Positions 1 through 18,353 of a stretch of 35,525 nt of DNA are shown piece by piece. Numbering within the stretch: position 1 is the stretch's first letter; each line of letters starts with the position of its first letter. The notes under the pieces are model-generated. The model had not been told where the DNA came from and made no database searches. It saw nothing but the letters and a program-made list of their open reading frames with translations. The translations under genes and the position numbers were made by a program. Origin of the DNA: Paenarthrobacter sp. CM16 (GTDB lineage Bacteria; Actinomycetota; Actinomycetes; Actinomycetales; Micrococcaceae); the NCBI RefSeq assembly GCF_013179505.1, contig NZ_JABMCX010000006.1, forward strand, positions 1 to 35,525. Reading direction: 5' to 3'.

Positions 1-282
1 ACTCCAGCGCAGCTCATCAAGGTCGCCGGTGAGGTGGTGGACCTGGCAACGGAGCTTTTTGACGTGGCCAATTCCAACGTCATCAGTGACGTCGCCGCTG
101 CCACCGATGCAGCCCGGGCCGCTGCTACTACTGCCCGGGTCAACATCGACATCAACGTGGTTGCCATCAAGCCTGGCGAAGCCCGTTCCCGCCTGGCGGA
201 GCAGACGGACGGGATTGAAGCCAAAGTGGTTCTCGCCGCTGATGCCCTGGTGCAGCGCGTACGCGAAAGGATCCTCTCATGA
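1..282 (+). CDS. fchA: Methenyltetrahydrofolate cyclohydrolase (FchA/FTCD cyclodeaminase-like), 3' part
   Basis: Only the last 93 codons are present; the frame is open from base 1, so the gene begins upstream of the window. The visible part is the helical C-terminus of the formiminotransferase-cyclodeaminase/FchA family, with the VVDLATELFDVANSNVISDV segment followed by an Ala-rich stretch and NIDINVVAIKP. In this family the protein hydrolyses 5,10-methenyl-THF to 10-formyl-THF in the cytoplasm. Its TGA overlaps the folD ATG (ATGA at 279-282), so the two are translationally coupled. The partnership matters because the FolD next door appears to lack the residue needed for its own cyclohydrolase step. 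The family call rests on remembered sequence pattern; the N-terminal half cannot be checked. Confidence 0.8.
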   Translation, partial: TPAQLIKVAGEVVDLATELFDVANSNVISDVAAATDAARAAATTARVNIDINVVAIKPGEARSRLAEQTDGIEAKVVLAADALVQRVRERILS

Positions 283-1181
283 GTACTGCTGTTCGCGGGA
301 ACACCGAGGTGCTTTCCGGGAAGGAACTCGCTTCCCGGATCCAGCAGCACGCCCGGGATGAGGCCCGCATCCTTCACTCCGAGGGATTGCGGATCACCCT
401 GGCTGTTGTGGTGGCCACGGAGGACGAGTCAACGCACTGGTATGTCCGTTCGATCGAGCGTGCGGCCGAACGTGCCGGAATTGCTTGCAGGATTGTGGAT
501 CTAGGCCCGGATGCCAGCGAGCAAGCACTGGCCGGTGTCCTCGAAGACCTCAGCGCCGAACCAACCGTCCATGGGATCATCCTCCAGACTCCCCTGCCGG
601 CCGCCGTTCGCGCTGACCGGCTGGTGGGGCTCATTGTCCCCGGGAAGGACATCGACGGCGCCAACCCCCTCAGCCTGGGCCGCTTGGCTGTGGGGCAGCC
701 CGCCTTCGCACCTGCTACCGCCCAGGCTGTGGTGGAGTTGCTGGACCACTTCCAGGTTCCGATCGCTGGACGCAACGTGGCCGTCGTCGGACGTTCCGCC
801 GTGGTGGGCAAGCCGTTGGCCCTGCTCCTCCTTGAAAGGGACGCGACCGTCACTATCTGCCATTCCAAATCCGGACCGCTGGAACGCTACACCCGGCCGG
901 CCGACGTCGTGGTGGTTGCCGCGGGGCGCACAGGACTGCTCAAGGGCAGCCACCTTTCACCGGAGACTGTGGTGATCGACGTCGGCACGAACGTTCTTCC
1001 CGATGGTTCCCTGGTGGGGGACGTGGACGAAGCCAGTGTTACCGGCGTGGCCGCCGGCCTGAGCCCGGTTCCCGGCGGCGTGGGGTCGGTGACCACCGCA
1101 CTGTTGCTGCTGCACACGGCTGAGGCTGCGCGGCAACAGTCCCACGCTGCCCTGCTGACTGCTTCCACTTCCCGGATCTGA
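279..1181 (+). CDS. folD: Methylenetetrahydrofolate dehydrogenase (FolD), predicted dehydrogenase-only
   Basis: 300 residues, the usual FolD length, cytoplasmic. It oxidises 5,10-methylene-THF to methenyl-THF with NAD(P)+; ordinary FolD then also hydrolyses methenyl-THF. Visible marks are the N-terminal catalytic domain with LAVVVA, the YVxxK-equivalent segment at 55-59, IILQTPLP with Gln102, KDIDG with Asp123/Asp125, and a C-terminal Rossmann domain with VVGRSAVVGKP and SPVPGGVGSVTTALL. The catalytic Lys of the YVxxK motif (Lys54 in E. coli, Lys56 in the human enzyme) is Ile59 here (YVRSIER, codon ATC 453-455). In the human enzyme that lysine is needed for cyclohydrolase but not dehydrogenase activity. 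The start overlaps the fchA stop. A sarcosine/betaine-type C1 oxidation role is inferred from the neighbours. Confidence 0.93.
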   Translation: MSTAVRGNTEVLSGKELASRIQQHARDEARILHSEGLRITLAVVVATEDESTHWYVRSIERAAERAGIACRIVDLGPDASEQALAGVLEDLSAEPTVHGIILQTPLPAAVRADRLVGLIVPGKDIDGANPLSLGRLAVGQPAFAPATAQAVVELLDHFQVPIAGRNVAVVGRSAVVGKPLALLLLERDATVTICHSKSGPLERYTRPADVVVVAAGRTGLLKGSHLSPETVVIDVGTNVLPDGSLVGDVDEASVTGVAAGLSPVPGGVGSVTTALLLLHTAEAARQQSHAALLTASTSRI

Positions 1182-1192
1182 AGGGTTTACCC

Positions 1193-3511
1193 ATGCATGC
1201 CAAAGCTCCGCGCGAGAACATCGACGAGTCACAACTGACCGTCACCAAACCCAAGACCAAAGCTGTAGGCATCCCCGCTGTTGCCAACGCCTTGAAAATT
1301 TCGTTGGAACAGATGGGGCCGCTGCGCAGCGTCCAGACCCTGCTGGCAGTGAACCAGTTGGACGGGTTCGACTGCATGGGGTGCGCCTGGCCGGAACACG
1401 AAAAGCGCAATGCGGCAGAGTTCTGCGAGAACGGCGCCAAGGCCGTGGCCGAGGAAGCTACCCGACGCCGGGTCACACCGGAGTTCTTCGCCAAGCACTC
1501 CGTTGCCGAACTCAGAACCCGAGATGATTTCTGGCTTGGCCAGCAAGGCCGGATTACGCATCCGATGTTCCTGGATGAAGGCGCTACCCATTACACCCCC
1601 ATTGGGTGGGATGACGCCTATGACCTTATGGCCGAGGAACTGCGGGGAATGGAACACCCTGGCCAGTCGGTGTTCTACACCTCCGGCCGCACCTCCAACG
1701 AGGCAGCGTTTGTCTATCAGCTTTTGGTCCGGGGACTTGGGACCAACAACCTCCCGGACTGCTCCAACATGTGCCACGAGTCCTCCGGCTCCGCGCTGGT
1801 GGAGACCATCGGCATCGGCAAGGGCTCGGTCAGCCTGACGGACCTGGAGACGGCGTCGCTGATCTTCGTGGCGGGGCAGAATCCCGGAACCAACCACCCC
1901 CGCATGCTCAGCGCCCTGGAAAAGGCGAAGAAGAACGGGGCGGTCATCGTCTCGGTGAATCCGCTTCCTGAAGCCGGGCTCCTGCATTTTGAAAACCCAC
2001 AGCATGTGGCCGGGATGATCCAAGGAACCCAACTGACGGACGATTTCCTGCAGATCCGCGCAGGCGGAGACCAGGCCCTCTTCCAGGGACTGGGCAAATA
2101 CCTGCTCGAAGCCGAAGCTGCCGGACGCAATACCCCGGGCCTGCAAACAGTGCTGGACCACAACTTCATCGAGAACCACACGGTGGGCCTCGACGATTAC
2201 CTGCGCTACCTGGAGAAGGTGGAATGGGATGACATTGTGGAGGCAACCGGGCTCACTTTGGAACAGATCCATTCCACCGGTGAGCGAATGCTCGCTTCCA
2301 GCGCCACCATCGTGTGTTGGGCCATGGGCCTGACCCAGCACAAGCATTCCGTCCCCACCCTCCGCGACGTAGTGAACGTCCTGCTGCTGCAAGGCAACAT
2401 CGGCAAGCCCGGCGCCGGAGTCTGCCCGGTCCGCGGCCACTCCAACGTCCAAGGCGACCGCACCATGGGCATCTTCGAAAAGATGCCCGAGGCCTTCCAC
2501 GATCGGCTGGACCAGGAATTCGGGTTCCGCTCCCCCCGCGAACATGGCTACGACACCGTGGCAGCAATCCGCGCCATGCGGGACGGAAAAGTCCGTTTCT
2601 TCATGGGCATGGGAGGCAACTTCGTCCGGGCCGCCCCCGATTCGGAGGTCACCGAGCAAGCCTTGGCCAACACCCGGCTGACCGTTCAGATCTCCACCAA
2701 GCTCAACCACTCGCACCTGTCCACTGGCCGGCGGGCGTTGATCCTGCCCACCCTCGGGCGCACCGAGAAGGACACCCAGCGGACCGGCGACCAGCGCGTC
2801 ACCGTGGAAGATTCCATGAGCGCCGTCCACGCATCACGCGGACGCCTCAAGCCCGCAAGTGAACACCTGCACTCCGAAGTAGCAATCGTGTGCAACCTCG
2901 CCCACCGGCTGTTCACCGATGGCCACAGTCGCCTGCCCAACACTCCCCAGGCGGCCTGGCTCGCCATGCGGGACGATTACACCCTGATCCGGAAGCACAT
3001 TGAAGCCGTGTTTGATGGCTTTGAGGACTTTGAAGCCCGGATCCAACATCCTGGCGGCTTTGTGCTCCCCCATCCGCCCCGCGATGCGAGGAAGTTCGAC
3101 ACCGTGTCCGGGAAAGCACACTTCACCGGCAACGAACTGGAGTTCATCAAAATCCCACCGGGCCGGCTGGTCCTTCAGACCCTGCGCTCACACGACCAGT
3201 ACAACACCACCATCTACGGCAAGGACGACCGCTACCGTGGCATCCATGGGGGCCGGCGCGTGGTGCTCGTCAACGCTGACGACATCACCGAACTTGGATT
3301 CTCCGACGGCGACATGGTCCACCTGATCTCCGAGTTCCAGGGAACGGACAGGCGGGCGGAGAACTTCCGGATCGTGTCCTACTCAACGCCCAAGGGCTGT
3401 GCCGCCGCGTATTACCCGGAAACGAACGTTCTGGTGCCCCTCGATTCCGTGGCGGACACCAGCGGAACGCCCACGTCCAAGTCCGTGATCATCAGGCTGG
3501 AGAAGGCCTGA
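1193..3511 (+). CDS. FdhF/YdeP-type molybdopterin oxidoreductase (formate dehydrogenase alpha-like)
   Basis: 772 residues, no signal peptide, so probably cytoplasmic. The sequence fits the molybdopterin oxidoreductase alpha-subunit family that includes YdeP and is related to formate dehydrogenase. Near the N-terminus are Cys61, Cys64 (GFDCMGCAWP) and Cys78, candidate Fe-S ligands. CSNMCHESSG places Cys194 where the family has the Mo-coordinating Cys or selenocysteine. Further on are VSVNPLPEAG, the cofactor-binding QGNIGKPGAGVCPVRGHSNV segment, and a C-terminal molydopterin-dinucleotide domain (LRSHDQYNTTIYG). It lies 11 nt after folD and before formaldehyde dehydrogenase and a MoeA homologue, which supports formate oxidation to CO2 as the last C1 step. 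No separate beta/gamma subunit is seen, so the electron acceptor is unknown. The exact substrate is inferred from context. Confidence 0.88.
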   Translation: MHAKAPRENIDESQLTVTKPKTKAVGIPAVANALKISLEQMGPLRSVQTLLAVNQLDGFDCMGCAWPEHEKRNAAEFCENGAKAVAEEATRRRVTPEFFAKHSVAELRTRDDFWLGQQGRITHPMFLDEGATHYTPIGWDDAYDLMAEELRGMEHPGQSVFYTSGRTSNEAAFVYQLLVRGLGTNNLPDCSNMCHESSGSALVETIGIGKGSVSLTDLETASLIFVAGQNPGTNHPRMLSALEKAKKNGAVIVSVNPLPEAGLLHFENPQHVAGMIQGTQLTDDFLQIRAGGDQALFQGLGKYLLEAEAAGRNTPGLQTVLDHNFIENHTVGLDDYLRYLEKVEWDDIVEATGLTLEQIHSTGERMLASSATIVCWAMGLTQHKHSVPTLRDVVNVLLLQGNIGKPGAGVCPVRGHSNVQGDRTMGIFEKMPEAFHDRLDQEFGFRSPREHGYDTVAAIRAMRDGKVRFFMGMGGNFVRAAPDSEVTEQALANTRLTVQISTKLNHSHLSTGRRALILPTLGRTEKDTQRTGDQRVTVEDSMSAVHASRGRLKPASEHLHSEVAIVCNLAHRLFTDGHSRLPNTPQAAWLAMRDDYTLIRKHIEAVFDGFEDFEARIQHPGGFVLPHPPRDARKFDTVSGKAHFTGNELEFIKIPPGRLVLQTLRSHDQYNTTIYGKDDRYRGIHGGRRVVLVNADDITELGFSDGDMVHLISEFQGTDRRAENFRIVSYSTPKGCAAAYYPETNVLVPLDSVADTSGTPTSKSVIIRLEKA

Positions 3512-3570: not shown

Positions 3571-3652
3571 CCAATGGTCCGTGGGAGGTGCTTCGGTGGC
3601 CTGAAACCTGGGGAGGTATTTCTTCATCGAAGCACCGCTTTCGGACCATTGG
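3571..3652. promoter_or_regulatory. Long inverted repeat upstream of formaldehyde dehydrogenase
   Basis: Two 25-base arms face each other, 3571-3595 and 3628-3652. The outer 11 bases (CCAATGGTCCG / CGGACCATTGG) and the next block of 9 (GGTGCTTCG / CGAAGCACC) match perfectly; a 5-base stretch between them does not. The spacer is 32 nt. It could be a leader RNA hairpin, or two opposed copies of a regulator site of the form CCAATGGTCCG-N5-GGTGCTTCG. It ends 40 nt before the fdhA start. Which regulator would bind is not known; the IclR gene at 6348 is a candidate. Confidence 0.7.
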
Positions 3653-3692
3653 GCAGCGTATGTCAGTAACAGCCAAAGAACAGGGAGTGACC

Positions 3693-4910
3693 ATGTCAGG
3701 AAACAGAGCAGTCGCCTACAAGGAACCCGGTGTGGTGGAAATCATCGACACCGACTACCCAACGTTTGAGCTCAAGGACGGACCAGGCGTCAACCCCGCA
3801 AATGTCGGCCGGAAAGTACCCCACGGTGCGATCCTCCGCACCGTGACCACCAACATCTGCGGTTCGGACCAGCACATGGTCCGTGGCCGCACCACAGCTC
3901 CGCAGGATCTGGTCCTCGGCCACGAAATCACCGGCGAAGTGGTGGAGGTGGGACCCGACGTCGAGTTCATCAAGGTGGGCGACATCGTCTCGGTGCCGTT
4001 CAACATTTCCTGCGGCCGCTGCCGCAACTGCAAGGAACAGAAGACCGGCATCTGCCTCAACGTCAACCCGGACCGCCCCGGCAGTGCCTACGGTTACGTG
4101 GACATGGGCGGCTGGGTGGGTGGTCAGGCCGAATTCGTGCTGGTTCCTTACGCCGACTGGAACCTGCTGCGCTTCCCGGACCGCGATCAGGCCCTGGAAA
4201 AGATCATGGACTTGACCATGCTCTCAGACATCTTCCCCACCGGCTTCCACGGCGCAGTCACGGCCGGTGTGGGCGTGGGGTCCACTGTTTACGTCGCAGG
4301 TGCCGGGCCCGTAGGCCTTGCCGCCGCCGTCGGCGCCCAACTGTTGGGTGCCGCCGTCGTGATTGTGGGCGACATGAACGAGGACCGCCTGGCCCAGGCG
4401 CGCTCCTTCGGCTGTGAAACGGTCAATGTGTCCAATGGCGACCCCAAGGAACAGATTGCGCAGATCCTCGGCGTCCCGGAAGTGGACTGCGGCGTGGACG
4501 CTGTGGGATTCGAAGCCCGCGGCCACGGCAAGGACGCCTCCCATGAGGCTCCGGCCACCGTGTTGAACTCCCTCATGGACATCACTGCCGCCGGCGGATC
4601 CCTGGGCATCCCGGGCCTCTATGTCACCGGCGACCCAGGCGGAATCGACGACGCAGCCAAGCACGGCTCGCTCTCGCTCTCCCTGGGCACAGGCTGGGCC
4701 AAGTCCCTGTCCTTCACCACCGGTCAGTGCCCGGTCATGAAGTACAACCGTCAGTTGATGATGGCGATCCTTCATGACAAGGTCCAGATCGCCAAGGCAG
4801 TGAACGCCCAGGCAATCCCGCTCGAGGACGCTCCCCGCGGTTACGCAGAGTTCGACGCCGGCGCGGCAACAAAGTTCGTGCTGAACCCCAACGGCTACGT
4901 GAAGGCCTAA
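3693..4910 (+). CDS. fdhA: Glutathione-independent formaldehyde dehydrogenase
   Basis: 405 residues, close to the roughly 400 of the Pseudomonas putida enzyme. It belongs to the zinc-dependent medium-chain dehydrogenases and oxidises formaldehyde to formate with NAD+ and no thiol cofactor. Catalytic zinc ligands are Cys56 (NICGSDQH) and His77 (GHEITGEVVEVG). The structural zinc site is Cys107, Cys110, Cys113 and Cys121 (CGRCRNCKEQKTGIC). The Rossmann fold is VAGAGPVGLAAAVGAQ. The open frame extends upstream to 3588 and has an ATG at 3660, but the ATG at 3693 has AGGGAG 5 nt before it and gives the canonical SGNRAVAYKEPG start. Formaldehyde from methyl-group oxidation would be detoxified here and passed to the upstream formate-oxidising enzyme. 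Confidence 0.95.
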   Translation: MSGNRAVAYKEPGVVEIIDTDYPTFELKDGPGVNPANVGRKVPHGAILRTVTTNICGSDQHMVRGRTTAPQDLVLGHEITGEVVEVGPDVEFIKVGDIVSVPFNISCGRCRNCKEQKTGICLNVNPDRPGSAYGYVDMGGWVGGQAEFVLVPYADWNLLRFPDRDQALEKIMDLTMLSDIFPTGFHGAVTAGVGVGSTVYVAGAGPVGLAAAVGAQLLGAAVVIVGDMNEDRLAQARSFGCETVNVSNGDPKEQIAQILGVPEVDCGVDAVGFEARGHGKDASHEAPATVLNSLMDITAAGGSLGIPGLYVTGDPGGIDDAAKHGSLSLSLGTGWAKSLSFTTGQCPVMKYNRQLMMAILHDKVQIAKAVNAQAIPLEDAPRGYAEFDAGAATKFVLNPNGYVKA

Positions 4911-5015: not shown

Positions 5016-6224
5016 ATGCTGACCCAAGAAATCGCCGGCGTTTCCGTGCGGCACTCACCCGCCTGGGCTGATGCCCGGCAATTGGCCTACGATTGCGCCG
5101 GCCCGCTCCCGCCGTCCAAAGCCTCCCTCCGCGAAGCAATCGGGCACACCCTGGCCCGCGCAGTCACCGCCCCGCGGGACCTTCCGCACTACGCGTCATC
5201 GGCAATGGACGGCTGGGCCATCAACGGCGGCGGTCCGTGGTTATTGACGACGGCGGGGCTACCGCTCTCACCGGGCGAAGCCAGCACTATCGCCACTGGC
5301 GGGCTGGTCCCGGCCGGGGCTTCGGGGGTCCTGCGCAAGGAAAGCGGCCAGGTCTCCGGGGAAGGACAGCTCTTGCTCAGGCACGATGCAAAACCGGGCG
5401 AAACGTTGCCCGGCCGGCACATTCGTCCGGCAGGAGAGGAAGCCAGGGCAGGCGATGTCCTCATCCCCGCCGGCACACTGCTCAACCCTGCCCACATTGC
5501 CCTGGCCGCCGTGGCAGGCCACGATCACCTCCAGGTACAGCGCAAGCCGAGGGTCGCCGTCGTACTGACCGGCTCGGAAGTAATCACTTCCGGGGAGCCG
5601 GCAGCAGGACAGGTCCGTGACGCCTTCGGGCCACAGCTGGATGCCGTCATTTCACAATTGGGCGGGGAACCCGGCGGCCAGCGCAGGATAGGCGACTCGT
5701 ACGAAGAGTGGGTGGGCGCGCTGGGAAGCGTTCCCGGGGCCTTGCCGCCGGACGTCACCATCACCACCGGCGGAACCGGAAAATCCGGGACGGACCACTT
5801 CCGCCAAGCCGTTGCCGCGCTCGGCGGCCGGTTCCTCCTTGACGAGATCGCCATGCGGCCCGGACATCCGGCTGTGCTGGCGGAACTTCCCGAGGGCCGC
5901 TTCATCATTGGACTTCCAGGGAACCCCCTGGCCGCGATGATGGCCCTGATGACCGTAGGCGAACCCTTGCTGGCCGCCCTCGGACAAAGGCCGCTCCGGC
6001 CAGCCGGGCTGATGACGTCCGGGGCCGACATCGATCCGGACCCGGGACGGACACGCCTCATCCCCTGCAGCGTGCTCCATGACGTGGTGTTCCCTGCCTC
6101 CCGCACGGGCCCGGGCATGATGCGCGGGCTTGCTTGGGCAGACGGCTACATGGCCGTTCCCCCGGAAGGCGTCGCGGCCGGCGCGCCCGTACCCGTCCTC
6201 CCCCTGCCGTGGACACGCTCATAA
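5016..6224 (+). CDS. moeA: MoeA-like molybdopterin molybdenumtransferase
   Basis: 402 residues, typical MoeA length. MoeA inserts molybdenum into adenylylated molybdopterin in the cytoplasm. Visible are SAMDGWAI (usual SAMDGYAV, with the conserved Asp), the PGETLPGRHIRPAGEEARAGDVL segment, VVLTGSEV, TTGGTGKSGTDHF where most MoeA have SGGVSVGxxD, and GLPGNPLAAMM. The SGG loop departs from consensus, so this is a divergent, perhaps dedicated, paralogue. AGGAAG precedes the ATG. It lies near a molybdoenzyme gene with only fdhA between, which suggests that it matures that enzyme. Housekeeping moeA elsewhere in the genome cannot be excluded. Confidence 0.87.
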   Translation: MLTQEIAGVSVRHSPAWADARQLAYDCAGPLPPSKASLREAIGHTLARAVTAPRDLPHYASSAMDGWAINGGGPWLLTTAGLPLSPGEASTIATGGLVPAGASGVLRKESGQVSGEGQLLLRHDAKPGETLPGRHIRPAGEEARAGDVLIPAGTLLNPAHIALAAVAGHDHLQVQRKPRVAVVLTGSEVITSGEPAAGQVRDAFGPQLDAVISQLGGEPGGQRRIGDSYEEWVGALGSVPGALPPDVTITTGGTGKSGTDHFRQAVAALGGRFLLDEIAMRPGHPAVLAELPEGRFIIGLPGNPLAAMMALMTVGEPLLAALGQRPLRPAGLMTSGADIDPDPGRTRLIPCSVLHDVVFPASRTGPGMMRGLAWADGYMAVPPEGVAAGAPVPVLPLPWTRS

Positions 6225-6347
6225 GGTGGGCGCCCATGGTGTGAAAGAGTCCCTGCAAAACTCCGTCTAGGATGAGGTCAGACGAGCGTGCAGGCCGGAC
6301 AACGCACCACCTTGGGCGGCCTGCCTGGACAACGGACACGAGGCATC

Positions 6348-7154
6348 ATGGCCGCACGGAACAACCCGGACATCGACAAGGACGCAGACGCCCACACCGG
6401 CGGCGTCCAATCCGTGGACCGTGCCCTCCAGATCCTGGAAATCCTGGCCCGTGAAGGTGACGCCGGGGTAAGTGAGATCGCCGAGGAAATGGGCATCCAC
6501 AAGTCCACAGTCTCCAGGTTGGTAGGTTCCTTGGTCAGCCGGGACATCGTCCGGCAAAACAGCGAGCGCGGCAAATACCAACTGGGTTTCGGCATACTTC
6601 GCCTGGCCTCTTCCATTCCCGGCAGGCTGAGTGTGGTCCACGAGGCCCGGGGGGTCCTGGAATCGTTGGCGGCCGAATACAAGGAAACGGTGAATCTGGC
6701 CGTGCTTCGCTCCAACTATGCCGTCAACGTGGACCAGGCAATGGGTCCCTCAACATTGGCCACCTATGACTGGGTGGGCAGCCTGACCCCGCTGCATGCC
6801 ACCTCCAGCGGCAAAGTCCTTCTTGCCGCGTTGACCGCTGACGAAAGATCCCAGGTCCTCAAGACTGTGGGCCTGCCCGCCCGAACGCCGCGCACCGTCA
6901 CCAACCGGGGTGAGCTGGAAAAGCAACTGCTTGAGGTCGCCCGAAACGGCTACGCCACGGTTCATGAAGAGTTTGAAATCGGCCTTACTGCCATCGCCGT
7001 ACCCGTCTTCAACCACGCGGGAAGTGTGATCGCCGCGGTCAGTATCTCCGGGCCGGCGTTCAGGTTCTCTCCCGAGGACCAACCCGGGCTCATTGCGGGC
7101 CTCCGCGAGGCCGGCCTGACCATCAGCGCTCGAATGGGCTACAGGCACCGCTAG
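6348..7154 (+). CDS. IclR-family transcriptional regulator
   Basis: 268 residues. An N-terminal winged helix (SVDRALQILEILAREGDAGVSEIAEEMGIHKSTVSRLVGSL) is followed by the IclR effector domain (LTPLHATSSGKVLLAAL, GYATVHEEFEIGLTAIAVPV, AVSISGPAFRF). The frame is open back to 6288, but the ATG at 6348 has GAGG 4-5 nt ahead and is the better start. It sits between the C1-oxidation genes and the BCCT transporter on the same strand, so control of one or both is likely. The 14-bp palindrome at 7217-7230 is the nearest obvious operator-like site. The ligand is unknown; a betaine catabolite is a guess from neighbours. Confidence 0.92.
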   Translation: MAARNNPDIDKDADAHTGGVQSVDRALQILEILAREGDAGVSEIAEEMGIHKSTVSRLVGSLVSRDIVRQNSERGKYQLGFGILRLASSIPGRLSVVHEARGVLESLAAEYKETVNLAVLRSNYAVNVDQAMGPSTLATYDWVGSLTPLHATSSGKVLLAALTADERSQVLKTVGLPARTPRTVTNRGELEKQLLEVARNGYATVHEEFEIGLTAIAVPVFNHAGSVIAAVSISGPAFRFSPEDQPGLIAGLREAGLTISARMGYRHR

Positions 7155-7377: not shown

Positions 7378-7488
7378 ATGAATCTGCCCCTGAGTACGCC
7401 TGCACCGCAGGCTGCCAACGGGAAAATCATGGTCATCAAGGAAGCCCCCAACCTTCCGGCCGACCTCGCCCTTCAGGGCCATGTATAA
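7378..7488 (+). CDS. Small ORF, 36 residues, ahead of BCCT transporter
   Basis: It starts MNLPLSTPAPQAANGKIMVI and ends PADLALQGHV. It has a good ribosome site (AAGAGGTG, about 4 nt before ATG) and ends 37 nt before the transporter start. It has no membrane segment, no cysteine and no recognised domain. It may be a small protein made with the transporter or a leader peptide. It is not recognised, and the only support is the ribosome site and its position. Confidence 0.42.
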   Translation: MNLPLSTPAPQAANGKIMVIKEAPNLPADLALQGHV

Positions 7489-7525
7489 ACGCAAGCCCAT
7501 GACTCTCCGAGCAAAGGACCCGCTC

Positions 7526-9565
7526 ATGGCTATAAACAGTGACACCAAACCGCTGACACCAGAGGAGTTACCTGCCGACGACCAGTTGGCGGCCACTTCA
7601 CCGGCAGCCAGCACCAGCAAAGAAAGCAGCCCCGCCCACGCGGCAAGCCCTGAGGAAACCATCAGGGTCTCCGCCGACGACACCACCTTGGCCGCCCTCG
7701 ACGCTGAGGACGGAGGTGCAGAGCCCCTTCCCGATTCTGAAGAATACGAACAGATCATGGAAGAACTGCGCCATGCCAAGACCGAGCAGGCCGTCTCGGC
7801 CCGCCGGAACCGCAAACTTACCCTCGACAAAGTCACCTTCGGGATCACGGGCGCCATCGCCGTCGCCTTCGTGGTCTGGGGATTTGTTGGGCGGGACAGC
7901 CTCTCCGATACCTCCAAAGGTGCCCTGAACTGGGTCATGGAGTACACCGGCTGGCTCTTCATGGTCCTCGCCTCACTGTTCGTCGTCTTCGTCCTGTGGC
8001 TTGCCCTCGGCAAGTTTGGCAATATCCCGCTGGGCAAGGACGGTGAGAAACCGGAGTTCCGAACCGTCTCCTGGGTGGCCATGATGTTCGCCGCCGGAAT
8101 GGGCATCGGGCTCATGTTCTACGGCGTGGCCGAGCCGCTGTACCACTACATCTCACCGCCGCCGGGAACAGTGGACGGCCGCACTCCGGCAGCCATCCAG
8201 ACTGCCATGGCCACCTCGATCTTCCACTGGACCCTGCACCCCTGGGCCATGTACGCCGTAGTGGGCATCGCCATGGCTTACGGGACCTACCGTTTGGGTC
8301 GCAAGCAACTGGTGTCCGCCGCCTTCACCTCGCTGTTCGGCATCCGCATGGTGGAAGGTCCGCTCGGGAAGTTCATCAACATCCTGGCCATCTTCGCCAC
8401 GCTCTTCGGAACCGCTGCGTCGCTGGGCCTCGGCGCCCTCCAGATCGGCAGCGGCATGACGTCCAACGGCTGGCTGGGTGAAATCGGCACTCCGGTGCTG
8501 GTGGTCATCGTCGCGATCCTGACCTTCTGCTTCGTGGCATCCGCCGTGTCCGGCATCAGCCGCGGCATTCAGTGGCTCTCCAACATCAACATGGTCCTGG
8601 CCGTAGTCCTGGCCCTGATTGTCTTTGTGGCCGGGCCCACCCTGTTCATCCTCAACCTGATCCCCTCCGCCGTGGGCGACTACGCCAGGGACCTTGCCGA
8701 GATGTCATCACGAACCGAAGCCGTGGGAGATGATTCCCTGCGCAGCTGGATGACCAGTTGGACCATCTTCTACTGGGCTTGGTGGATCTCCTGGACGCCC
8801 TTCGTGGGAATGTTCATCGCCCGCATCAGCCGTGGACGCACCATCCGCCAATTCGTCACCGGCGTCCTGCTGGTACCCAGCGTTGTGAGCGTCATCTGGT
8901 TCGGTATCTTCGGCGGGGCCGCCTTCCACGTCCAGCAGGAAGCGGACAAAGCCGGCACTCCAGGCCTTGTGACCATGGTGGACGGCGCACCCTCCATCAA
9001 CTTCGATGGCGCCCTCTTCGATTTGGTGAAGAACCTGGGAATGCCCGGTTGGCTGACCGCTGCCGTCATCGTCCTGGCCATGGTCCTGGTGGCGATCTTC
9101 TTCGTCACCGGCGCCGACGCCGCCTCGATCGTGATGGGATCCCTGAGCTCCAACGGCGCCGAACACCCGCGTCGGGGAGTGGTGATCTTCTGGGGCAGCC
9201 TCACCGGCGCAGTGGCAGCAGTCATGCTGCTTGCCGGCGGCGATAAGCCATCGGAGGCTTTGTCGGGACTGCAAAGAGTGACCATCGTGGCAGCCCTGCC
9301 CTTTGTGATCGTCATGCTGTTGCTCTGTTTCGCCCTGGTCAAGGATCTTCGCCGCGACCCCCTGCAATTGCACAAGCGTTTGGCTACCTCAGTAGTGGAC
9401 CGGGCTATCCGGACCGGCGTTGAGCAACACGGCGGTGTTCAATTCGACCTCGTCACCAAGCACGAGTGCGCGGAGAAATGCACCGACTCCGATTGCGCCG
9501 GGGGAACACCAACGGGAACCATCCCCCTGGTCGGCAAGCCCCAACAGGACTCCACCGGCAAGTAA
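7526..9565 (+). CDS. BCCT-family betaine/choline-type transporter
   Basis: 679 residues with about twelve membrane segments; imports quaternary ammonium compounds such as glycine betaine with Na+. It carries the BCCT marks MGIGLMFYGVAEPLYHY (the GMGIG form found in Na+-coupled betaine carriers) and WAWWISWTPFVGMFIARISRGRTIRQF with the tryptophan box. A hydrophilic N-terminal stretch of about 95 residues precedes the first membrane segment. The C-terminal tail is cysteine-rich (HECAEKCTDSDC), which is unusual. The open frame reaches 7481, but ATG at 7526 has AAAGGA 7 nt before it and is preferred. The C1-oxidation neighbours favour a nutrient-uptake role over pure osmoprotection. Substrate is inferred. 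Confidence 0.92.
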   Translation: MAINSDTKPLTPEELPADDQLAATSPAASTSKESSPAHAASPEETIRVSADDTTLAALDAEDGGAEPLPDSEEYEQIMEELRHAKTEQAVSARRNRKLTLDKVTFGITGAIAVAFVVWGFVGRDSLSDTSKGALNWVMEYTGWLFMVLASLFVVFVLWLALGKFGNIPLGKDGEKPEFRTVSWVAMMFAAGMGIGLMFYGVAEPLYHYISPPPGTVDGRTPAAIQTAMATSIFHWTLHPWAMYAVVGIAMAYGTYRLGRKQLVSAAFTSLFGIRMVEGPLGKFINILAIFATLFGTAASLGLGALQIGSGMTSNGWLGEIGTPVLVVIVAILTFCFVASAVSGISRGIQWLSNINMVLAVVLALIVFVAGPTLFILNLIPSAVGDYARDLAEMSSRTEAVGDDSLRSWMTSWTIFYWAWWISWTPFVGMFIARISRGRTIRQFVTGVLLVPSVVSVIWFGIFGGAAFHVQQEADKAGTPGLVTMVDGAPSINFDGALFDLVKNLGMPGWLTAAVIVLAMVLVAIFFVTGADAASIVMGSLSSNGAEHPRRGVVIFWGSLTGAVAAVMLLAGGDKPSEALSGLQRVTIVAALPFVIVMLLLCFALVKDLRRDPLQLHKRLATSVVDRAIRTGVEQHGGVQFDLVTKHECAEKCTDSDCAGGTPTGTIPLVGKPQQDSTGK

Positions 9566-14773: not shown

Positions 14774-15547
14774 CTAGTTGGGGCGGGCTCCCTGCAACCT
14801 TGCGCTCATGCGGTGCGCTTCCTCGAGCAGCAGCTTGCCCAGGAACTCCTGGCGGTCAGGACGGAAGCGCGGTTCGATGCCCGTCAGGGAGAGCGCCCAG
14901 GCAGGGCGGCCCTGCTGGTCAAACACCGCAGCGCCCATACCCCAGCTGCCTTCGAGGATGAGTCCGGGATTAACGGCGTACCCGGCCAGGCGGGTGCGTT
15001 CCAGGTTGTCCCGCACTACGTTTTCGGGGTGGCCCACAGCAAAGTCGCCGGCGTGCGCAGGCCAGTCCCCCAGCAGTGCTTCCTGTTCCTCCGGGGGCAG
15101 GAAGGCCATGATCGCGGTTCCGGCCGAGGCCACTCCGAGCGGGAAGCGGACCCCTTCGTGCAGCACAAAGGATCGCACAGGAAACGCTCCCTCTTCGCGC
15201 AGGACGCAGATGGTTTCATTCCCACGGCGGAGGGAGAAGAACGCACTCTCCCCCGTTTCCGCGGCCAACCTTCGCAGCGAGGGCCGCGCGATGTCCTCCA
15301 TGGGGAAACGGGCGGCAGCAACCGATCCGAGCAGGAAGATCTCCGGCCCCAGCACCCACTTGCCCGTGCCGGGATCGTGCTCCAGCAAACCTTCGGCAGC
15401 CAGGGACGTCAGCAGGCGGTGGACGGTTGGCCGGGTCAGCCCGGACTCGCGCACCAGACCCGCCAGTGATGTTCCACCCGGCTTGCGGCCCACCAGGCGC
15501 AGCAGCTGCGCCACCCTGCCCACAACCTGGGCTCCTTGCACTGCCAC
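14774..15547 (-). CDS. IclR-family regulator of the CoA-transferase operon
   Basis: 257 residues from a GTG start with GGGAGG about 6 nt ahead. The N-terminal winged helix is VGRVAQLLRLVGRKPGGTSLAGLVRESGLTRPTVHRLL (shown as two parts: recognition helix TRPTVHRLLTSL), followed by an effector domain with FPLGVASAGTAIMAFL and GYAVNPGLILEGSWGMGAAVF. It is divergent from the 3-oxoacid CoA-transferase genes and separated by 171 bases containing three GTCCAC-type repeats, a layout typical of a local repressor that also controls itself. The inducer is probably a substrate or CoA ester of this pathway, by inference. Confidence 0.92.
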   Translation of the reverse strand: MAVQGAQVVGRVAQLLRLVGRKPGGTSLAGLVRESGLTRPTVHRLLTSLAAEGLLEHDPGTGKWVLGPEIFLLGSVAAARFPMEDIARPSLRRLAAETGESAFFSLRRGNETICVLREEGAFPVRSFVLHEGVRFPLGVASAGTAIMAFLPPEEQEALLGDWPAHAGDFAVGHPENVVRDNLERTRLAGYAVNPGLILEGSWGMGAAVFDQQGRPAWALSLTGIEPRFRPDRQEFLGKLLLEEAHRMSARLQGARPN

Positions 15548-15567: not shown

Positions 15568-15693
15568 GTCCACAATATGGATACCGTTCAGTCTAGCGTC
15601 CACAGCGTGAGTAGTTGGTCCGCGCCGCCATTGATCTCTTGCGTTGCCCTGCCTAGGCTCGATTCCAAGAAGAGACACGTCCACAAAGTGGAC
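15568..15693. promoter_or_regulatory. Three operator-like sites between divergent IclR and CoA-transferase genes
   Basis: Site 3, GTCCACAAAGTGGAC (15679-15693), is a perfect inverted repeat of six with a 3-nt centre, 25 nt before the CoA-transferase start. Site 1, GTCCACAATATGGAT (15568-15582), lies 20 nt before the IclR start. Site 2, GTCCACAGCGTGAGT (15598-15612), is a weaker copy. The shared pattern GTCCAC-N3-(G/A)TG suggests one regulator, most simply the adjacent IclR protein. Confidence 0.75.
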
Positions 15694-15718
15694 CAACCAG
15701 CTCAACGAGGAGTTCGCA

Positions 15719-16435
15719 ATGTCAACCATGTACGCGAGTGCAGCCGAAGCGCTGCGTGAGGTGATGGCAGACGGCCTGACCATCGCCGTCGGAGGTTTTG
15801 GCCTCAGCGGCATCCCCGCAGACCTGATCGACGCCGTTCGTGACTCCGGCGCCAAGGACCTCACCATCGTGTCCAACAACATGGGCGTGGACGGCAAGGG
15901 CCTCGGCGTCCTCATCGAAGCGGGTCAGGTCCGGAAGGTCATCGCTTCCTATGTGGGCGAGAACAAGCTTTTTGCCGAGCGGTACCTGGCCGGGAAGCTG
16001 GAGGTTGAGTTCACGCCGCAGGGCACCCTGGCCGAACGCCTGCGCGCCGGCGGCGCCGGCATTCCCGCGTTTTACACACGGACCGGTGTGGGAACCCTGG
16101 TTGCCGAAGGCAAACCGCTGGAAGAGTTCGACGGCGTCACGTACGTCCGCGAGCGCGCCATCACCGCCGACGTCGCGCTGGTCCACGCCCACACCGCCGA
16201 TACGGACGGCAACCTGATCTACCGCTATACGGCACGGAACTTCAACCCGGTGGTGGCTACCGCGGGTGCGGTGACCATTGCCGAGGCTGAGATCATTGTG
16301 CAGCCGGGCGAGCTGGACCCCAACCACATTGTGACCCCGGGGGTCTACGTCCAGCGGCTTGTTCAAGCCACGGACCGGGTCAAGGACATCGAACAGCGCA
16401 CGGTCCGGCAACGAGCCGAATCACTCACGGTTTAG
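15719..16435 (+). CDS. scoA: 3-oxoacid CoA-transferase, subunit A
   Basis: 238 residues. The family-I CoA-transferase alpha chain is shown by [43 protein letters not shown] and SYVGENK. With subunit B it moves CoA from succinyl-CoA to a 3-oxoacid such as acetoacetate or 3-oxoadipate. The open frame extends to 15644, but the ATG at 15719 has GAGGAG 6 nt before it. It is first in an operon with subunit B (20 nt gap) and a thiolase. Whether it acts on acetoacetate (Sco) or 3-oxoadipate (Pca) cannot be settled from sequence; the thiolase type makes acetoacetate or another short oxoacid more likely. Confidence 0.92.
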
Positions 16436-16455
16436 CAGCAAAGGAGCTCATCACC

Positions 16456-17142
16456 ATGGCATGGACACGAGACCAGATGGCCGCCATCGCGGCTGAAGAA
16501 CTGAACGACGGCGACTACGTGAACCTCGGCATCGGCATTCCCACCTTGGTGGCCAACAACCTGCCCGACGGCGTGCGGGTGGTCCTCCAGAGTGAGAACG
16601 GACTGCTGGGCATGGGCCCGTTCCCCTACGAGGGCGAGGAAGACGCCGACCTCATCAACGCGGGCAAGCAGACTGTCACCATCACTCCCGGCGGCAGTAT
16701 CTTTGACTCCGCTACCTCGTTCGGCATGATCCGCGGCGGGCACGTCAAGGTGGCCATCCTGGGCGCTATGCAGGTGTCCGGCTCCGGGGACCTGGCCAAC
16801 TGGACCATCCCCGGCAAGATGGTCAAAGGAATGGGCGGGGCCATGGACCTGGTGGCCGGCACCCCGCGGGTGGTGGTCCTCACCGAGCACAACGCCAAGG
16901 ATGGTTCGGCCAAGATCGTCACCGAATGCACGCTCCCGCTCACGGGGCTCAAGTGCGTGGACCGGATCATCACGGACCTCGCCGTTTTTGACATCGAAGA
17001 AACCCACGACGGCGGCACCCGCCTTCTGCTGACCCGCCTCGCCCCGGGCGTCACGGTGGAAGAGATCCGCAGCAAGACGGACGCGGAGTTCACGGAAGCG
17101 CTCACCTCTGAAGAACACACGCTTGAAGGAGCCAACGCATGA
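16456..17142 (+). CDS. scoB: 3-oxoacid CoA-transferase, subunit B
   Basis: 228 residues. The catalytic Glu is in [12 protein letters not shown], with [14 protein letters not shown] before it and [19 protein letters not shown] after it. The glutamate forms the CoA thioester intermediate. AAGGAG precedes the ATG at good spacing. The TGA overlaps the thiolase ATG (ATGA 17139-17142), so the product passes straight to a co-translated thiolase. Confidence 0.94.
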
Positions 17143-18353
17143 GCCTGAAAGAGCAATTTGGCAAAGACATCCTGCTCACAGGGTGGGGCCACAGCAAGTT
17201 CGGGAAGCTGACTGATGAGACCTTGGAGTCGCTGATCGTCCAGGTGGCCAGCGAAGCCATCAAGAACTCGGGCCTGGACCCGAAGGACATTGACGAGATC
17301 TACCTCGGCCAGTTCAACTCGGGGATGCAGCCTTTGGGATTCACGTCCTCGCTGGCCCTGCAGTTATCCGCCGATCTGGCCAATGTCCCGGCAACCCGCA
17401 CCGAGAATGCCTGTGCATCCGGATCGGCGGCCTTCCAGCAGGGCGTCAAAGCGGTGCTGGCCGGAACCGCCCGCAACGTCCTGGTGATTGGCGCGGAGAA
17501 GATGACCGATGCCGGTGCGGACGTGGTGGGGGCGGCCTTGCTCGGCGCTTCCTATGAGATGGCCGGAAAAGCGTCCTCCACCGGGTTCACCGGCTTGTTC
17601 GCAGAAGTCGCCAAGCACTATGGCAAGCGCTATGGGGCAGGCATCAGCGGACTGGGCTTTGAAGGCGGGCTGGGCGATGTCCTGGGCTCCATTGCGGCCA
17701 AGAACCACCGCAACGGCATGGACAACCCCTATGCGCAGATGCACCGGGACTTCGGCGAGGAGTTCTGCCGGACCATCTCCGAGAAGAACCCCATGGTGGC
17801 CGAGCCCTTGCGCCGCACGGACTGTTCGCCGGTCTCGGACGGTGCTGCCGCCGTCGTGCTTTCCACCTCGGCTACCGGCGGCGCAACCGCGCCTGTGCGG
17901 CTGGCCGGATTCGGCCACGCCAACGATTTCTTCCCCGCGGAGAAGCGCGATCCCACCGAGTTCGCAGCCACCCGCGCCTCGTGGGAGCGCGCGTTCACCA
18001 TGGCAGGGGTAGGCCTGGAGGACCTGGATTTCGCCGAGGTGCACGACTGCTTCACCATCGCCGAGCTCATCATGTACGAAGCCATGGGCCTCACTCCGCG
18101 CGGAGAAGGCGCCCGTGCTGTCCAGGAGGGTTGGGTATATAAGGACGGCAAGCTGCCCGTCAACGTCTCCGGCGGCCTCAAGGCGAAGGGCCACCCGGTG
18201 GGTGCCACAGGGGTCTCGCAGCATGTCATTGCGGCAATGCAGCTCAGCGGGACCGCGGGCGACATGCAGTTGCCCGCGGCCCGCCGGGGTGCGGTCCAGA
18301 ACATGGGCGGCGTGGGCATCGCCAATTACGTCAGCGTCCTGGAGGCTCTCTGA
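17139..18353 (+). CDS. Acetyl-CoA acetyltransferase, SCP2-thiolase-like
   Basis: 404 residues. It cleaves a 3-oxoacyl-CoA with CoA to acetyl-CoA and a shortened acyl-CoA. The nucleophile is Cys92 ([10 protein letters not shown]), with His302 in HDCFTIAEL and His352 in [14 protein letters not shown]. The C-terminal Cys loop (CxGGG) of classical thiolases is absent; the end reads [17 protein letters not shown], as in the SCP2-like branch. This argues against a standard PcaF. Start overlaps subunit B. Its stop codon touches the stop of the convergent ankyrin gene with no base between. Confidence 0.92.

Follow-up and report, generated by a model that had tools for sequence, protein, structure and literature searches.

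Background

The locus studied here raises the question of what a FolD-type methylene-THF dehydrogenase does when it lacks the lysine of the YxxxK motif and is encoded directly after a separate methenyl-THF cyclohydrolase gene of the FchA type. The gene lies at one end of the window, by which we mean the whole stretch of DNA analysed (35,525 nucleotides); this is contig C556 of a genome from the Arthrobacter group, assembled in 619 contigs totalling 4.98 Mb.

Mutants of this lysine are reported to lose cyclohydrolase activity, and the methenyl bond opens slowly even without an enzyme. Monofunctional FolD paired with FchA is known from clostridia; in Clostridium perfringens, Aluri et al. in 2016 reportedly described FolD as a dehydrogenase only and FchA as the cyclohydrolase. 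Yeast Mtd1 has Thr at the lysine position and Tyr at the Gln position. The dimethylglycine/sarcosine gene clusters of Arthrobacter were reportedly described by Meskys et al. in 2001, and betaine catabolism genes have been described from this group of organisms.

In the excerpt available of PMC3338484, the lysine is the general acid-base in the cyclohydrolase reaction, with residues "strictly conserved in FolD orthologues", and in that of PMC3368264 it also supports, together with the Gln, hydride transfer in the dehydrogenase reaction. The accessible part of PMC9173628 reports that human K56E retains a measurable dehydrogenase isotope effect, with its KM raised more than sixfold; it favours a water proton-relay and leaves the catalytic role of the lysine in the cyclohydrolase step undecided, without excluding it. 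Separate FolD and FchA proteins are described for acetogens and syntrophs (PMC3584212; PMC9040625, both in excerpt), a fused FchA-MtdA for C. formicaceticum (PMC12844395, in excerpt), and Mtd1 as a monofunctional NAD-dependent dehydrogenase in titles cited by PMC11064299. The 2016 study of Aluri et al. (Microbiology 162:145) is among the references of PMC7219735.

Results and discussion

The FolD gene and its active site

The gene and the codons of its site residues are as follows.

279..1181, + strand: FolD-type methylene-THF dehydrogenase without the YxxxK lysine (300 aa, ATG start; PF00763 88.3 bits, PF02882 181 bits)
441..443, + strand: Tyr55 codon (Tyr of YxxxK), kept
453..455, + strand: Ile59 codon ATC in the motif YVRSIER, replacing the catalytic lysine (E. 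coli Lys54, human Lys56)
585..587, + strand: Gln103 codon (E. coli Gln98, human Gln100), kept, from the alignment of relatives
648..656, + strand: Asp124-Ile125-Asp126 codons, kept, from the alignment of relatives

The protein belongs to the FolD superfamily, with both domains above their cut-offs and the FolD fold predicted; its model is that of an ordinary FolD (pLDDT 81.8; TM 0.87/0.93 to 3p2o). It scored below the curated cut-off in the best 25 of 30 NCBIfam models (top score 256.8 against 421). Where bifunctional FolDs have YxxxK it reads YVRSI. The replacement of the lysine by Ile59, proposed in the initial annotation, was borne out by alignment with bifunctional FolDs, and Lys faces Ile59 in all five printed PDB alignments (the best 5 of 26 PDB matches). 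The Gln and Asp of the bifunctional site are present (Gln103, Asp124), as had also been claimed, but the numbers given then, Gln102 and Asp123/125, must each be raised by one with this start codon (Gln103, Asp124/126).

A shifted alignment, or another Lys at the site, was excluded, the N-terminal domain having Lys15 and Lys123 as its only lysines. The Lys15 column is Lys in 86 of 97 lysine-bearing FolDs and the Lys123 column in all 97, so neither residue substitutes for the lost one. Nor is Ile59 a sequencing accident, since it was found in 57/57 relatives from genome contigs (collected with six search patterns, one of which included a YVRSIER-type motif, and including the broken gene L063) and in 30/30 genus loci retrieved with the whole protein, the window's own among them. 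A recent loss private to this strain was ruled out by the invariance of Ile59 in relatives.

A degenerate or regulatory paralogue, with both activities lost or weakened, would accord with the part of the lysine in hydride transfer (PMC3368264, in excerpt) and with the raised KM of human K56E (available part of PMC9173628). This is highly improbable, however: the remaining site residues are invariant in 13/13 aligned members, the gene is whole and identically placed in 54 of the 57 related loci, and in Coriobacteriia relatives of the Arthrobacter-type clade the FolD found is often lysine-less too (one match listed for most genomes).

The FchA-type partner and the operon

Two features link the FolD gene to its upstream neighbour.

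1..282, + strand: 3' end (93 codons) of an FchA-type methenyl-THF cyclohydrolase gene (PF04961 45.3 bits, cut-off 24.5, profile positions 112-180 of 182; NF045657 positions 118-207 of 207)
279..282, + strand: 4-nt stop/start overlap ATGA between FchA and FolD

The 5' part of FchA, its first 122 codons, ends contig C28 (C28:2-367, minus strand); the residues TPAQLIK at this end match the window part. The -4 overlap is common to 55/57 related loci. Overlap with an FchA-type gene had been recognised at the outset, in the words "fused by overlap"; the overlap stands, whereas a FchA-FolD fusion was rejected, the two being separate genes that share 4 nt. A whole orthologue, L009, scored 146.7 bits against the curated NF045657 cut-off of 275, below the equivalog level; the PF04961 cut-off is passed by the window's own FchA part. 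The cyclohydrolase activity of FchA is thus assigned at the level of its family, which includes cyclodeaminases. Promoter and terminator scans of L009 gave 0 promoter-like sites and no terminators above those in shuffled sequences.

Upstream of FchA on C28 lie DMGO (1701 bits to N,N-dimethylglycine oxidase 1pj5) and PurU (320 bits, cut-off 285.95), followed by a divergent GntR-type regulator; this supports the C1-catabolic setting first suggested for the locus. Farther away on C28 is a glycine-betaine monooxygenase-like gene, which at 386 scores below the curated cut-off of 670. Downstream of FolD the window holds the following genes.

1193..3511, + strand: FdhF/YdeP-family molybdopterin oxidoreductase (TIGR01701 962 bits, cut-off 582), whose product probably oxidises formate
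3588..4910, + strand: glutathione-independent formaldehyde dehydrogenase (TIGR02819 749 bits, cut-off 637, scan from 3696)
5016..6224, + strand: MoeA-like molybdopterin molybdotransferase (MoeA_N, MoCF_biosynth, MoeA_C)
6288..7154, + strand: IclR-family regulator (PF01614, PF09339)
7481..9565, + strand: BCCT transporter of the betaine/choline type (PF02028 577.5 bits)

FchA, PurU and DMGO all adjoin FolD in 54 of the 57 relatives; the exceptions are L058 and L064, without PurU and DMGO, and L062, without DMGO. This recurrent PurU-DMGO-FchA-FolD operon makes it likely that the route runs from dimethylglycine over CH2-THF, CH+-THF and 10-formyl-THF to formate, the route from betaine on being drawn from gene families and established enzymology.

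We propose that the window FolD is, with high probability, a methylene-THF dehydrogenase that gave up its cyclohydrolase activity and is paired with the FchA-type cyclohydrolase in a betaine/dimethylglycine operon. The proposal takes sequence, operon, co-occurrence and clade as observed, and from there we infer the activities, the direction of the reactions and the translational coupling. DMGO would load formaldehyde units onto THF to give CH2-THF, which the window FolD would oxidise to CH+-THF; FchA would open the latter to 10-formyl-THF, from which PurU would release formate and THF, and the FdhF-like enzyme may then act on the formate. Overlap of the FchA stop with the FolD start would allow both proteins to be made together through translational coupling, and a lysine-bearing FolD beside glyA would serve biosynthesis.

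Broken copies of the operon genes were also seen. FolD is split in Arthrobacter sp. ISL-5 (L063; L063 and L026 are listed as broken), and in strain Hiyo8 DMGO and FdhF are spread over several frames, by sequencing error or as pseudogenes.

Other FolDs in the same genomes

A PF00763 search of the source genome gave two matches, the window FolD and one on contig C107. The latter keeps the lysine, is adjoined by a GlyA-like ORF and passes a curated bifunctional FolD cut-off (466.5 against 401); the second, lysine-bearing FolD anticipated in the initial annotation is therefore present. Fhs is also encoded in this genome. Other genomes with more than one FolD were compared internally: in G028, with three FolDs, the FchA-linked copy has Ile and both the PurU-linked and the lone copy have Lys, and in G110 and G140 the FchA-linked copies are non-Lys and the unlinked copy is Lys. 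A third type of FolD in the window's genus (L213, G028:C44; L214, G019:C41) is adjoined by PurU, without FchA, and keeps Lys.

FolD-PurU pairs without FchA also keep Lys in 5/5 Pseudomonadota plasmid loci read. Together with L213 and L214 these pairs indicate that loss of the lysine tracks FchA and not catabolism, and catabolic use as the cause of the loss was rejected. To judge from the genes, a catabolic route of this type can evidently run on a bifunctional FolD, since the FchA-less pairs keep Lys. The division of labour first suggested for FolD and FchA is consistent with linked FolDs lacking Lys and unlinked ones keeping it, but not as a fresh loss within the operon, given the older clade described below. 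The split can be explained without the separate control of flux to formate that had been offered as its reason, because catabolic FolD-PurU pairs lacking FchA keep Lys.

Linkage to FchA and loss of the lysine

Among 101 genus genomes, 55 carry the window-type FolD, and the operon's FchA is found in the identical 55. FchA lies within 200 bp in 56 of the 58 window-type FolD rows listed; of the two unlinked rows, one is a fragment of a broken gene in G030 and the other an additional copy in G062. The second G062 copy (L371, G062:C34) still has Ile and is adjoined by an FchA remnant of ~28 residues. L058 is a second copy of a window-type FolD with an FchA remnant alone beside it.

The wider sample comprised all FTCD_C matches listed for 396 Actinomycetota genomes, chosen unlinked FolDs and plasmid records, and a FolD counted as linked if an FchA gene on its own strand was no more than 400 bp away. 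Dropping 15 short or gapped rows reduced 276 rows to 261. Lys was found in 0/159 FchA-linked rows (L058 being scored as linked despite having only an FchA remnant) and in 97/102 unlinked rows, which are non-random controls made up of top matches to the window protein and rows hand-picked among the matches listed; the rows are related, so the linked and unlinked counts are not independent. The linked rows have 93 Ile, 33 Val, 29 Ala and 4 Leu. As the 261 rows include repeated loci, we also counted distinct sequences (n=241): 142 linked non-Lys, 96 unlinked Lys and 3 unlinked non-Lys. No lysine-bearing FolD beside FchA was found among the FTCD_C matches listed for the 396 Actinomycetota genomes, within the flanks seen. 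Two of the three unlinked lysine-less exceptions, L127 and L128, come from genomes that encode an FchA at another site; the third is the plasmid locus L280, for which the plasmid record alone was examined.

These counts bear on the alternative that the window FolD is still bifunctional, with a water relay opening the methenyl ring in the absence of the lysine and FchA just adding capacity. Slow non-enzymatic opening of the methenyl bond would help such an enzyme. The water proton-relay favoured in the accessible part of PMC9173628, which leaves the role of the lysine undecided, would help it as well. We nevertheless regard a bifunctional window FolD as unlikely, since, in the set compared, loss of the lysine is confined to FolDs that have FchA or once had it nearby (three distinct unlinked sequences apart) and 97/102 of the other rows keep it, and since its position is taken by hydrophobic residues (Ile, Val, Ala and Leu).

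L280 (9004-9885) is a window-type FolD with Ile on the conjugative plasmid pYJN5-2 of Paenarthrobacter sp. YJN-5; no FchA adjoins it, and it is annotated as bifunctional. Searches for FchA on plasmids returned mostly histidine-degradation cyclodeaminases with no FolD adjoining.

Outside Actinomycetota, where few FolDs were read, the FolD of Acetoanaerobium noterae (L356) reads YEKGA and is lysine-less, and that in a Fusobacterium vincentii record (L357) reads YLNSQ, so that Gln stands in for the lysine and Asn for the usual Gln; FchA lies elsewhere in both records. Rows from Pseudomonadota, Subdoligranulum and Haloarcula with no FchA adjoining keep Lys, and in a Methylobacterium record FolD was not found. 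In the f18 lineage the residue is Val or Leu depending on the alignment, and Lys in neither. One FchA-linked, lysine-less f18 FolD (L295) has a DMGO-like protein (32% identity) encoded 192 bp away, which may represent a similar pairing outside Micrococcaceae.

Number of losses

A tree of 95 rows, built without the compared columns, needs 2 changes at the lysine position, and its starred branches force 1. A 48-row tree including Acetoanaerobium and Fusobacterium, from which L286, L204 and L285 were removed by hand for long branches or distance and to which L356 and L357 were added, needs 3 changes (5-95% bootstrap range), and its starred branches force 2. One lysine-less clade was not rejected by the AU test (p 0.186, or 0.369 without Fusobacterium). 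The window protein falls in an 18-row lysine-less clade (support 100/97) with Kocuria, Embleya, Glycomyces, Coriobacteriia-type rows and Acetoanaerobium; this placement indicates that the lysine-less FolD of the Arthrobacter-type operon is old and does not represent a new loss. Many independent losses were also considered and rejected: a cluster-based Fisher p of 2.7e-17 was set aside as pseudo-replicated, and the trees need 2-3. An independent-pairs sign test had 2 usable pairs (p = 1) and no power.

The old clade could mean that the lysine loss was merely inherited, with FchA a cyclodeaminase or other protein and no division of labour at this locus. The NF045657 score below the equivalog cut-off and the single origin left standing by the AU test would suit this. 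It is nonetheless scarcely credible, as no histidine-degradation gene was found among the ORFs identified around FchA and FolD, DMGO and PurU bracket the cyclohydrolase step, and window-type FolD and FchA share the same 55 of 101 genomes.

Comparison with known systems

The pairing of a probably dehydrogenase-only FolD with FchA is best compared with the clostridial kind, in which dehydrogenase and cyclohydrolase are likewise separate proteins; the comparison rests on L356 rather than on a C. perfringens sequence. As in that kind, a lysine-less FolD occurs here with FchA in one genome, and L356 falls in the same clade as the window protein. The Gln, however, is replaced in the Coriobacteriia and Clostridia rows (Phe in L356) and kept in the window as Gln103, the use of this replacement as a mark of the clostridial kind being our own reading of the rows and no published criterion. 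Furthermore, FchA is not beside FolD in L356, whereas the window FolD sits in a betaine/dimethylglycine operon and shares its genome with a lysine-bearing FolD. The window system is thus a variant of the known clostridial kind, with the Gln kept, in the betaine operon of an aerobe and alongside a lysine-bearing FolD.

Bifunctional FolDs and the human MTHFD1 DC domain share the fold and the Tyr, Gln and Asp site residues with the window protein and differ in having the YxxxK lysine where it has Ile. Yeast Mtd1 resembles our reading of the window FolD as a dehydrogenase without cyclohydrolase activity and with the lysine replaced, but the window protein keeps the Gln. The FolD-PurU pairs of demethylation operons, such as the sarcosine oxidase operon of Paracoccus denitrificans (L282), occupy the same place in the route from CH2-THF to formate; unlike the window they have no FchA, and Lys is kept (5/5 read). 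The Arthrobacter dimethylglycine/sarcosine clusters cited in PMC3534580 resemble the window in having DMGO and PurU; the excerpt available of that paper names glyA, soxBDAG, sdaA, purU and a DMGO, with 0 word matches for cyclohydrolase.

A possible sequence mark of FchA-partnered FolDs

Beyond this locus, we lean towards a broader rule by which FolDs that work with FchA can in general be recognised from the missing YxxxK lysine. There would be at least two dehydrogenase-only lineages in several phyla, usually annotated as bifunctional; the dehydrogenase could do without the lysine, which the cyclohydrolase step alone would require, and one such enzyme would have been taken into the betaine operon of Arthrobacter and its kin beside the normal FolD. 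The rule was not found stated in the open full-text literature, a search that left subscription papers outside and in which "FolD" matches "fold"; Aluri et al. may have noted it. It is the part of this work worth following. If it holds, one residue separates dehydrogenase-only from bifunctional FolDs, the bifunctional annotation of the lysine-less FolDs of Paenarthrobacter YJN-5 and Collinsella aerofaciens is wrong, and models of C1 flux in actinobacteria and clostridia change. Natural, functional lysine-less enzymes could then also settle the role of the lysine, left open in the available part of PMC9173628.

Elsewhere in the window, ORF translations point to an apparent cluster of a two-subunit CoA transferase and a thiolase at 15644-18353, adjoined by an IclR-type regulator at 14774-15547.
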